Assembly (NCBI GenBank): GCA_021325365.1
Contig: JAJPHF010000112.1
Span: 1 to 19,580 of the forward strand
Direction: 5' to 3'
Source of the DNA: Pseudomonadota bacterium
GTDB lineage: Bacteria > Chloroflexota > UBA6077 > JAJPHF01
Length of the DNA: 19,580 nucleotides
The notes beneath the pieces are model-generated. The model made no database searches and was not told the origin of the DNA. It worked only from the letters and a program-made list of their open reading frames with translations. The position numbers and the translations under genes were made by a program. Within the stretch, counting starts at the first letter, position 1. Every line of letters begins with the position of its first letter. Below are positions 1,878-4,892 of this stretch, piece after piece.

Positions 1878-4800
1878 ATGGCGAATCGACTACGCGAGCA
1901 GCTTTCCCTGCTGGGCGACGACGAGACTCTCGTGGCGCGCGGCCTGGCGGGCGCCTCGCCGGTGCGCCGGCAGTACCTGGAGTTCAAGCGCCGCCATCCC
2001 GACGCCATTCTCTTCTTCCGGCTGGGCGACTTCTTCGAGACGTTCGACGACGACGCGGAGCTGGTGGCCGGCGCCCTGGACCTGACGCTGACGAGCCGCG
2101 ACCTCGGGCGGGGCGACAAGGTGCCGATGGCGGGCATCCCCGCCCACGCCGCCGAGGGCTACATCGCCCGCCTCATCGCCCAGGGCCACCGCATCGCCAT
2201 CTGCGACCAGGTGGGGCCGGTGCCTGAGCGGGGCCTGGTCCCGCGTGAGGTGGTGCGTGTCATCACGCCGGGCACGCTCGTCGAGCCGGCGCTCCTCGCC
2301 GCCGAGACGAACAACTACCTGGCGGCGATCTGGGTGGGGAATAGGGGCTGGGGGATAGGGGATAGAGGACGAGATGCGAGGACCGTTTCGCAGCCCCTAC
2401 CCTCTACCCTCGAAGCGCCTCGGAGCGTCGGCCTGGCGTACGCCGACATCAGCACGGGGCAGCTGGCCGTCACGACGCTGGGCGGCGACGACAGCGCGGG
2501 CGACGACGTGGCCGAGCAGCTGGCCGCCGAGCTAGCCCGCCTGCGGCCCGCGGAGGTGCTGTTGGCGCGCGGCCCGGACGGCGAGGTGCCGGCCGCACTG
2601 CTGGCGCTGCTGCCCGAGGGCAGCCATGCCACCCCCCGTGCGCCGGACCTCTTCCGCCCCGACGCCGCCCGCCGCACTGTGCTCGACCACTTCCAGGTGC
2701 CGTCGCTCGAAGCCCTTGGCCTGGACACGGACACCGCAGGGGCGTCCGGTAGAAGCGGGGCCGGTCGGCGGAACGGGTCCGGCCCCAGCGTTGGGGGGGC
2801 GAGGGGAGGCCAGAGCGCCACCGTGCCCGCGCTTGGCGCGCTGCTCGCGTACCTGGCCGACACGCAGGGTGCCGCGCTGCCGCTGCTGAAGCGTTTGCAG
2901 GTGTACGCCGTCGAGGGCGCCATGCTCCTCGATCCGGCCACGCGCCGCAACCTGGAGCTGCTGCAGGGCGTGCGCTCGGGCAACCGCCAAGGGTCGCTGC
3001 TGGGCGTGCTCGACTATACCCGCACGGCCATGGGCGCGCGCCTGCTGCGGCAGTGGCTGACGCAGCCGCTGCTCGACCTCGCGCGCCTCGAAGCGCGCCA
3101 GCAGGCCGTGGCCGAATTGTTCGACTCGCCGCTGCGCCGCGCGGAACTGCGCGAGGCGCTCGGCCGCGCCGGCGACCTGGAGCGCCTGGCGGCGCGCGCC
3201 GCCCAGCGAATCATCGGCCCGCGCGAGTGCCTGGCGCTGCTGCGCGGCCTGGAGACGGTGCCCGCGGTGCGGACGTTGCTCGCCGATCCGGCGCTCGTCA
3301 CGCTGCGCCGCGAGGAAACCGCGCTCGACCCTTGCCCGGCGGTCGTGCAGGCGATCGGGACCGCGCTCGCCGACGAGCCGCCGGCCGTGGTGGGCGAGGG
3401 GACTATCCGCGCCGGCCACTCGGCCGAGCTGGACGAGCTGCGCGCGCTCAGCGGCGACGCCAAGCAGTGGCTCGCGCGGCTGGAGCGCGAGGAGCGCGAG
3501 CGGACGGGCCTCAAGGGCCTGAAGATCGGCTACAACCGGGTCTTCGGCTACTACCTGGAGGTGTCCAGCGCCGTCGCGGCCGGCCGCACCGACCATTTCC
3601 AGCGCCAGCAGACGGGCGCCGCGACGGTGGGCGAGATGCTGGAGCGGCTGGGCTACCAGCGCAAGCAGACGCTCGCCAACGCCGAGCGCTACGTCACGCC
3701 GGCGCTAAAGGAGCAGGAGCTGCGGCTGCAGAACGCCCAGGATGAGGCGCTGGAGCTGGAGCGCCGCCTGTACGCCGAGCTGGTGAACACCCTGGCGGCG
3801 GCAGCGCCGACGCTGCTGCGTACGGCGGGTGCGCTCGCCCGTCTGGACGTGCTCGCCTCGCTGGCGGAGGCGGCCGCGCAGGGCAACTGGACGCGGCCGA
3901 CGCTGGTCGAGGACGGCCCGATCGACATCACGGCCGGCCGCCACCCGGTGGTCGAGCGCACGCTGCCCCCCGGCAGCTTCGTCGCCAACGACACGTTGCT
4001 AGCGAGCGGGAGGGAACCTAACCCCCCAGCCCCCTTCCCTGCGAAGGCAGGGGGAGCAGACCTGGCCGTGCCTTCTCCCCCCTTCCTTGATAGGGAAGGG
4101 GGGCCGGGGGGGTTAGCTGCTGCGCCCCAGATCGTGATCCTGACCGGCCCGAACATGGCGGGCAAGAGCACGTACCTGCGGCAGGTGGCGCTGATCGTGC
4201 TGCTGGCGCAGATCGGCAGCTTCGTGCCGGCGCAGCGCGCCCGGCTGGGGCTGGTCGACCGCATCTTCACGCGCGTCGGCGCGCAGGACGACATCGCCAG
4301 CGGCCACAGCACGTTCATGGTCGAGATGGTCGAGACCGCGGCCATCTTGCGGAGCGCGACGCGCCGCAGCCTGGTGATCTTGGACGAGGTGGGGCGCGGC
4401 ACGAGCACCTTCGACGGCATGGCCATTGCGCGCGCCGTGGTCGAGTACCTGCACGACCACCCGCGCCTGGGCGCCCGCACGCTGTTCGCCACCCACTACC
4501 ACGAGCTGGCCGACCTGGAGCGCACGCGTCCGCGGGTGCGCGCCTACCGCGTCGCGGTGCTGGAGGAGGGCGACGACGTGGTGTTCCAGCACCGCGTGGT
4601 GCCCGGCGGCGCCGACCGGAGCTACGGCGTCCACGTCGCCCGCCTGGCCGGCCTGCCGCCGTCCGTCACGCGGCGCGCCCAGGAGCTGGTCGCCGAGCTG
4701 GAGACGCGCGCCGCAGCGGCCGACGCGCCGCCCGCGGGCGTGGCGCCAAGCAACGGCGCCGCCGACCACCCGGCGCTCGCCGAGCTGCGCCGCCTCGACG

Positions 4801-4892
4801 TGCTGAGCCTGTCGCCGCTCGAAGCGCTCAGTAAGCTGCTCGACCTGCAAGAGCAGGCGCGGCAGCCGTACAGCGGCTTGCGGGCAGACTGA
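1878..4892 (+). CDS. mutS: DNA mismatch repair protein MutS with three extra segments
   Basis: MutS recognises base mismatches and small loops and, using ATP, recruits downstream mismatch-repair factors. The order of landmarks is complete. The mismatch-wedging Phe-x-Glu motif lies in DFFETF (F52, E54), then come the connector and lever/clamp regions. Walker A is GPNMAGKST (about 757-765), Walker B LDEVGRGTS (D836-E837) and the family signature THYHEL (from about 872). The product is 1004 residues against about 850-880 in typical MutS. Most of the excess sits in three inserts, at about 153-183, 286-314 and 714-747, each encoded by repeat-like palindromic DNA. The core motifs are intact, so activity is likely. 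The ATG at 1878 is chosen because the family N-terminus begins shortly after it. No mutL follows; the next gene is convergent. Confidence 0.97.
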   Translation: MANRLREQLSLLGDDETLVARGLAGASPVRRQYLEFKRRHPDAILFFRLGDFFETFDDDAELVAGALDLTLTSRDLGRGDKVPMAGIPAHAAEGYIARLIAQGHRIAICDQVGPVPERGLVPREVVRVITPGTLVEPALLAAETNNYLAAIWVGNRGWGIGDRGRDARTVSQPLPSTLEAPRSVGLAYADISTGQLAVTTLGGDDSAGDDVAEQLAAELARLRPAEVLLARGPDGEVPAALLALLPEGSHATPRAPDLFRPDAARRTVLDHFQVPSLEALGLDTDTAGASGRSGAGRRNGSGPSVGGARGGQSATVPALGALLAYLADTQGAALPLLKRLQVYAVEGAMLLDPATRRNLELLQGVRSGNRQGSLLGVLDYTRTAMGARLLRQWLTQPLLDLARLEARQQAVAELFDSPLRRAELREALGRAGDLERLAARAAQRIIGPRECLALLRGLETVPAVRTLLADPALVTLRREETALDPCPAVVQAIGTALADEPPAVVGEGTIRAGHSAELDELRALSGDAKQWLARLEREERERTGLKGLKIGYNRVFGYYLEVSSAVAAGRTDHFQRQQTGAATVGEMLERLGYQRKQTLANAERYVTPALKEQELRLQNAQDEALELERRLYAELVNTLAAAAPTLLRTAGALARLDVLASLAEAAAQGNWTRPTLVEDGPIDITAGRHPVVERTLPPGSFVANDTLLASGREPNPPAPFPAKAGGADLAVPSPPFLDREGGPGGLAAAPQIVILTGPNMAGKSTYLRQVALIVLLAQIGSFVPAQRARLGLVDRIFTRVGAQDDIASGHSTFMVEMVETAAILRSATRRSLVILDEVGRGTSTFDGMAIARAVVEYLHDHPRLGARTLFATHYHELADLERTRPRVRAYRVAVLEEGDDVVFQHRVVPGGADRSYGVHVARLAGLPPSVTRRAQELVAELETRAAAADAPPAGVAPSNGAADHPALAELRRLDVLSLSPLEALSKLLDLQEQARQPYSGLRAD
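2334..2415 (+). repeat. Repeat-like insert 1 within mutS
   Basis: This stretch encodes roughly residues 153-180 of MutS, between the NNYLAAIW and VGLAYADISTG segments, which are nearly adjacent in other MutS proteins. The DNA is a G-run/purine repeat (GGGGATAGGGGATAGAGG) followed by a complementary C-rich run. TAGGGGCTG (2342-2350) and CAGCCCCTA (2391-2399) are exact 9-bp inverted repeats. Such sequence is typical of spacer repeats, not of conserved coding DNA. Confidence 0.55.
2735..2820 (+). repeat. Repeat-like insert 2 within mutS
   Basis: This stretch encodes a Gly/Ser/Arg-rich, low-complexity segment (about residues 286-314) just before the conserved PALGALLAYL helix of MutS. It contains an exact 8-bp hairpin, GGGGCCGG at 2757-2764 with CCGGCCCC at 2779-2786, and a run of seven G residues. 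MutS relatives normally have only a short linker here. The palindrome evidence is weaker than for the other two inserts. Confidence 0.4.
4018..4116 (+). mobile_element. 99-bp palindromic element inserted in frame in mutS
   Basis: The left end CTAACCCCCCAGCCCCC (from 4018) and right end GGGGGGGTTAG (to 4116) form terminal inverted repeats of about 23-25 bp that continue inward through CTTCCCT and AGGGAAG. A second internal hairpin is formed around CCCTGCGAAGGCAGGG. The length is exactly 33 codons with no stop in the mutS frame. It adds a Pro/Gly-rich segment (about residues 714-747) between FVANDTLLASG and the PQIVILTGPNMAGKS P-loop, which are separated by only a few residues in other MutS proteins. 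The behaviour resembles the Rickettsia palindromic elements that insert in frame in genes. I infer homology of behaviour, not of sequence. Confidence 0.7.

Follow-up and report, generated by a model that had tools for sequence, protein, structure and literature searches.

A probable in-frame copy of a dispersed palindromic repeat family beside the P-loop of a Chloroflexota MutS

The mutS gene of the window, the 19,580-nucleotide stretch of DNA analysed here, encodes 33 additional residues next to the ATP-binding site of the protein, which raises the question of what kind of sequence they derive from. The gene (positions 1878–4892, plus strand, 1004 codons) encodes Pfam MutS domains I–V and matches the NCBIfam equivalog NF003810. 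The best fold match of its product is to E. coli MutS structures, and the MutS domains and the P-loop motif are intact. The additional residues correspond to a 99-bp palindromic element at positions 4018–4116, delineated by its end-to-end fold, its open frame and a full-length, non-orthologous copy of 81% identity in the genome G176. The 99 bases start with CTAACCCCCCAGCCCCCTTCCC and end with GGGAAGGGGGGCCGGGGGGGTTAG, and the ends may be abbreviated as CTAACCCCCC...GGGGGGTTAG; each carries a tag in which CTAAC is followed by a run of C before the stem. The element enters mutS at codon position 2, and its translation, with the edge codons completed by flanking bases, is PNPPAPFPAKAGGADLAVPSPPFLDREGGPGGLA. 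An earlier note, written from the sequence of this DNA, had remarked on a length divisible by three and on the lack of stops in the mutS frame. Both are correct, and the mutS frame is the only stop-free one of the three forward frames; of the other two, one ends in TAG and the other starts with TAA and contains further stops.

The predicted DNA fold of the element pairs the first base with the last. The ends are inverted as the earlier note had stated; however, the terminal repeats of 23–25 bp that it proposed match only with indels, and the 99-mer aligns with its own reverse complement at 76% identity over 102 alignment columns. The fold has a z score of −1.95, with 6 of 200 shuffles folding at least as well, and 173 of 1771 contig windows equal or exceed it. 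The gapless arm score is reached by 53 of 500 shuffles and by 45 of 591 contig windows. Palindromicity is by itself weak evidence in such a GC-rich contig, and it was dropped as sole proof because shuffles and contig windows score alike: the structure is present, but the claim could not stand on inverted-repeat statistics alone. A search of the window against Rfam gave no match at the gathering threshold. As the scores expected by chance overlap those of the palindrome, the argument depends on the copies dispersed through related genomes.

Relatives were reached through a MutS search of 400 genomes of the phylum, which led to G080, and then through 16 genomes of the order of G080. The G080 MutS is 76% identical to P0006, a member of the window's MutS clade, and two further relatives of the window MutS, P0011 and P0012, carry the names Chloroflexota/Chloroflexi. 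G176 belongs to the same order as G080, which has the closest complete MutS among the genomes examined. With the 99-mer as query, 13 of the 16 genomes of the order match at E ≤ 1. There are 96 matches in G176, the best of which extends over all 99 bp at 81% identity (E 8.7e-19), 29 in G096, 26 in G072 and 18 in G192, a palindrome often being scored on both strands; G080, G045 and G063 yield no match at this threshold. At the stricter threshold of E ≤ 1e-6, 5 of 29 genomes of the class match. Exact copies of the tag CTAACCCCCCNGCCCCCTTCCC are present in 4 of 121 genomes of the phylum (52 times in G176, 5 in G099, 4 in G096 and 3 in G107), and the mirrored control tag occurs in none of the 121. 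In G176 the matches merge into 43 places within the 39 loci fetched, and 33 of these places lie outside any coding-like open frame. GGAC directly precedes CTAAC in 48 of the 55 tagged ends of the G176 loci. Some G176 contigs, for example C217 and C36, terminate at an element, as is expected because repeats break assemblies. Separately, the tag was seen in eight IMG/VR contigs (L272–L279), which may be viral or host pieces, and it lies in frame in open reading frames of L272, L274 and L278.

The earlier note had named many copies with matching ends in spacers as support and had held against its own reading the case of single-copy DNA that has no palindromic relatives; the genomes of relatives contain the dispersed copies. 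These also bear on the view that the insert is an ordinary Pro/Gly-rich, low-complexity loop that expanded in MutS, the palindrome being a by-product of GC composition. The overlap of the palindrome scores with shuffles and other contig windows agrees with such an origin, which nonetheless appears very improbable given that another genome contains full-length, non-orthologous copies sharing these ends, mostly outside coding-like frames, and that similar peptides occur in unrelated proteins.

The element is composed of two units. The left unit (positions 4018–4057, plus strand) comprises the CTAACCCCCC tag followed by a hairpin and corresponds to query positions 1–40/41, which match at up to 93% identity in G176. 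The right unit (positions 4078–4116, minus strand) is its inverted counterpart and corresponds to query positions 61–99, which match such units in the opposite orientation. In the relatives the unit of tag and hairpin, ~40 bp in length, occurs alone, paired inversely as in the window, or grouped. We consider it likely, with a probability of about 0.87, that positions 4018–4116 hold a copy, in frame with mutS, of a REP/MITE-like family of palindromic repeats dispersed in Chloroflexota, in which the ~40-bp unit would be the building block and two inverted units would generate the ~99-bp form. The proposal of the earlier note, a coding-compatible palindrome analogous to the Rickettsia palindromic elements (RPE), is supported by dispersed copies, in-frame copies and empty MutS sites in relatives. 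The dispersal of the family and its presence or absence at comparable sites suggest that it is mobile.

In-frame copies in other genes, which the earlier note had also named as support, are found in unrelated conserved genes of the relatives. On the basis of open reading frames and Pfam matches, those of G176 reside in a PurD-PurE fusion (L188), two DUF7948/SBBP proteins (L165 and L166), a DUF2298 protein truncated at the contig start (L173) and a cation P-type ATPase in which two copies lie in tandem (L227), such that 5 of 44 G176 places, the 43 together with L227, passed the in-frame test. A coding-like open frame surrounds 10 of the 43 places. Four of these were accepted (L165, L166, L173 and L188); five close to an ORF start or a contig end count as possible cases (L163, L185, L186, L190 and L195), as does L189, where a better-scoring ORF competes on the opposite strand. 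A further G176 locus, L162, was first flagged as in-frame and failed the second in-frame test. In-frame copies are frequent in the conserved genes of the 5.9-Mb genome G096, where 6 of the 15 loci fetched hold them and further matches exist: a CobB-like protein (L125), a MiaB/MtaB-like radical SAM protein (L138), PriA (L206), a PMT-family protein (L255), a PPDK-like enzyme (L259) and HypF, at two sites (L263). G192 contributes Mfd (L210), one of eight places. Candidates near ORF starts were left out in G192 (L266 and L268) and in G096 (L258 and L262).

Seven of the 13 sites fall between two different domains (L125, L138, L188, L206, L210, L259 and the first HypF site), as counted by hand from element positions and Pfam boundaries. 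The elements of L165 and L166 lie within DUF7948, that of L227 at the margin of the Cation_ATPase domain and that of L255 after the PMT match; the second HypF site splits the Sua5/YrdC domain, and L173 is truncated. Two reading frames are seen at the left end: cCT AAC, which reads as PNPPAPFP, in the window, L165 and L166, and CTA ACC, which reads as LTP, in L188, L227, L138, L206, L255, L259 and L263. The in-gene copies keep phase and contain no stops, neither of which would be needed if the hairpin were skipped by ribosomes or removed from the RNA to yield a MutS free of the extra residues, although a search biased toward open frames favors such copies. Mobile byp hairpins of yeast mitochondria are skipped by ribosomes, and here too a hairpin-forming sequence adjoins an essential motif; even so, skipping or removal seems very improbable.

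The Mfd insert of G192 is absent from the Mfd of G063, which is 70% identical to it; Mfd matches were obtained in all 16 genomes of the order, and the eight that passed a motif filter were aligned. The G176 Mfd (L250) was observed to have a different insert, RRQKAEGSLQPPASNLQPG, downstream of the site of the CTAACCCCCC-type unit in the G192 Mfd. For PriA, matches at E ≤ 1e-20 came from only 5 of the 16 genomes, and some were drawn by the repeat itself, so no statement on an empty site is made. Four of the 14 genes listed are of the repair type, namely those for MutS, Mfd, PriA and a DnaE-like protein; no enrichment is claimed from this figure, which lacks a background and comes from an analysis that began with MutS. 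The DnaE-like gene (L130, G054) contains a related hairpin that lacks the CTAAC tag, and L131 (G223) is not counted among the 14. That the element created the PurD-PurE fusion was rejected as a simple story, since the linker of a fused ORF of PurD-PurE type in G199, similar in length, shows no such peptide by eye. In G099, an ORF at L281 1450–3120 comprises several hairpin-type peptides and ends, in frame, with a 45-bp repeat that gives four 15-residue units in tandem.

The insertion site was compared across 120 listed MutS homologues of 7,997 scored, P0001 being the MutS of the window. The separation of FVANDTLLASG from QIVILTGPNMAGKS that the earlier note described is evident in the distance from the F-V-x-N landmark to TGPN, which is 55 residues in the window versus 17 or 18 in 110 of the 120 listed homologues; conservation of the insert in distant relatives, which that note had named as evidence against its reading, is thus not seen. 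The distances in P0001–P0007 are 55, 56, 44, 70, 23, 30 and 71 residues, respectively, P0020 has 25 and P0056 has 33, and the motif is missing in one listed homologue. P0002, 93.3% identical to the window MutS over 616 columns with the insert columns left out, carries at the site a palindrome-type peptide of other sequence and length, as do P0003, P0004 and P0007. The nearest homologue, P0005 (95.0% over 616 columns), has only GGGEPNA there, an excess of 5 residues, and the short stretch present in P0006 may be a remnant. In P0008 and P0009, both 84% identical to the window MutS, the site is empty. Near relatives therefore provide the empty site that the earlier note had called for, at 84% identity and less, and a near-empty one at 95.0%. 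The site turns over within the clade, as its members hold different palindrome-type peptides or remnants. Among the 80 matches listed from a MutS scan of genome contigs there is no clade member, and the best listed identity is 48%. At the same loop, P0056, whose MutS is 59% identical, has an unrelated insert, VGTRDATPPSGRQAG, and the site may therefore tolerate other sequences too.

This pattern could arise from repeated insertions at the site or from one ancient insertion in the ancestor of P0001–P0007 that was later remodelled by slippage or gene conversion, and we give the single insertion an even chance. The position, and by implication the reading frame, is shared by the window, P0002, P0003, P0004 and P0007, and the short stretches of P0005 and P0006 could be its remnants. 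However, P0008 and P0009 lack an insert despite being roughly as similar to the window as P0007 is (84% in each case), the excess over the empty site varies from 5 to 53 residues, and the relevant branches, which order P0006, P0007 and P0008/9, have support of only 43–45. Because that branching order lacks support, one old insertion with turnover and repeated insertion are indistinguishable. Over 95 codons at the start of mutS, the window and G176 are 81, 91 and 65% identical at codon positions 1, 2 and 3, respectively, and for their elements the identity reaches 81% over the full length and 93% within the left unit. Silent sites of mutS are thus less well preserved than the element, a difference suggesting that the window copy is young or refreshed.

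An AlphaFold2 model of the window MutS, computed with a 30-sequence alignment, has a mean pLDDT of 81.1 and seven segments below 50. Three of these segments, residues 157–177, 285–310 and 715–745, correspond to lineage-specific inserts, and the remaining ones are the termini and residues 894–914 and 953–961. In the model, residues 715–745 are located between strands 704–708 and 752–756, directly before the P-loop, and an alignment of the sequence with E. coli MutS is interrupted at E. coli residues 600–604. Near this position is E. coli Phe596, which we take to be the phenylalanine that stacks on the adenine. The 33-residue insert is probably a floppy, unfolded loop adjoining the ATP-binding site, in agreement with the surface loop guessed in the earlier note. 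Its place beside the P-loop, together with some excess sequence throughout P0001–P0007, would also suit an insert that has been domesticated and kept for tuning the ATPase or partner binding of MutS. We regard domestication as unlikely, since neither length nor sequence is conserved, the nearest relative, P0005, is nearly devoid of the insert, and the model depicts a low-confidence loop. It is likewise improbable that the loop before the MutS P-loop, perhaps with the Mfd and PriA sites, is a recurrent landing and excision site where palindrome gain and loss switches repair proficiency, a mutator switch at the DNA level. The other two inserts are also in frame on the plus strand. The second (positions 2334–2412, GGGGATAGGGG.../...CCCCTACCC) lies in the domain II region, covers the segment at 157–177 and is absent or different in relatives; its 15-mer has no copy in 271 loci, and hence its membership in a repeat family is without support. 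The third (positions 2730–2807, residues ~285–310) was identified from the alignment and the low pLDDT.

As an in-frame copy of the Chloroflexota family, the mutS element may be accounted for as follows. Copies would be made and inserted by machinery acting in trans, and those that survive would be the ones that entered a flexible loop or linker within an open frame. The tags may aid survival, since at each end a stop arises in one frame and the other two stay open. The Pro/Gly-rich peptide would be translated and be near neutral for MutS, and the mutS copy would later shrink, vanish or be replaced. With respect to the mover, a Y1_Tnp domain was found in 6 of the 16 genomes of the order. The one Y1/RAYT-like gene of G176 (L199) is surrounded by GTAGGGG hairpins, and its region of 2958 bases contains no CTAACC, CCCCTTCCC or GGGAAGGGG. 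A RAYT as mover is thus not supported in G176, the sole genome whose Y1 gene was inspected.

Three known systems resemble the family. RPE are palindromic repeats of 105–146 bp that lie in spacers or form in-frame fusions with conserved genes (PMC2229807), and they are reviewed with other in-frame MITE fusions in that paper and in PMC10969869; repeats similar to RPE are reported from Wolbachia. The Chloroflexota family is likewise palindromic and present, in relatives' genomes, in spacers and in frame in unrelated genes, whereas it belongs to another phylum, is GC-rich and is built of modular ~40-bp units with CTAACCCCCC tags. RPE-like here thus denotes a functional class, the likeness being to the description of RPE and not to their sequence families. 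GTAG/CGTC REPs are small hairpins, single, inversely paired or grouped, some of them intragenic, and GTAG repeats are known in Chloroflexi (PMC3733652). Many intragenic REPs reside in the DNA repair genes uvrA, uvrB, recB and dnaE2, and different REPs occupy about the same recB site in two Xanthomonas species (PMC3733652), a close parallel to the MutS site of the window; the word mutS does not occur in the main text of that paper. The Chloroflexota hairpin units are also single, in inverted pairs or grouped, and some lie within genes, but their ends read CTAACCCCCC..., a tag that is neither GTAG nor CGTC, and no association with a RAYT was seen in G176. The MITEs ERIC/RU-1, Correia and YPAL are short elements with inverted repeats, and some of them contain open frames that are fused to genes (PMC2229807). 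The Chloroflexota element is similarly short, has inverted ends and is fused to genes in frame, a likeness that consists of ends and fusion, with no parent insertion sequence or target duplication tied to the element.

A literature search, from which subscription papers were largely absent, found no coding palindrome family of this sort in Chloroflexota. The earlier note had called the palindrome possibly undescribed. This applies to the family, which has neither published tag and was for that reason classed as a new family within a known kind; it does not apply to the phenomenon, which is not new in kind (PMC3733652, PMC2229807). Protein-coding palindromes are best known from Rickettsia, and intragenic REPs from several other bacteria (PMC2229807, PMC3733652), and the Chloroflexota family adds another phylum and another repeat type. 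In the MutS clade, one site beside a catalytic motif occurs in a graded series from empty through near-empty to filled, which would allow a direct measurement of what coding palindromes cost and how they turn over.

Two other hairpins were observed in the window. The intergenic one at positions 225–275 (CCCTCACCCCGACCCTCTCCC...GGGAGAGGG) is of another repeat type. Its 19-mer core is present in 5 of 271 loci (L138, L234, L245, where it occurs twice, L255 and L263), and in L138 and L255 it lies within in-frame inserts. Upstream of mutS, at positions 1640–1675 of the minus strand, is a GTAG-type hairpin, GTAGGGCAGGGGCTCGCCCCCTGCC, which resembles the published GTAG REPs.
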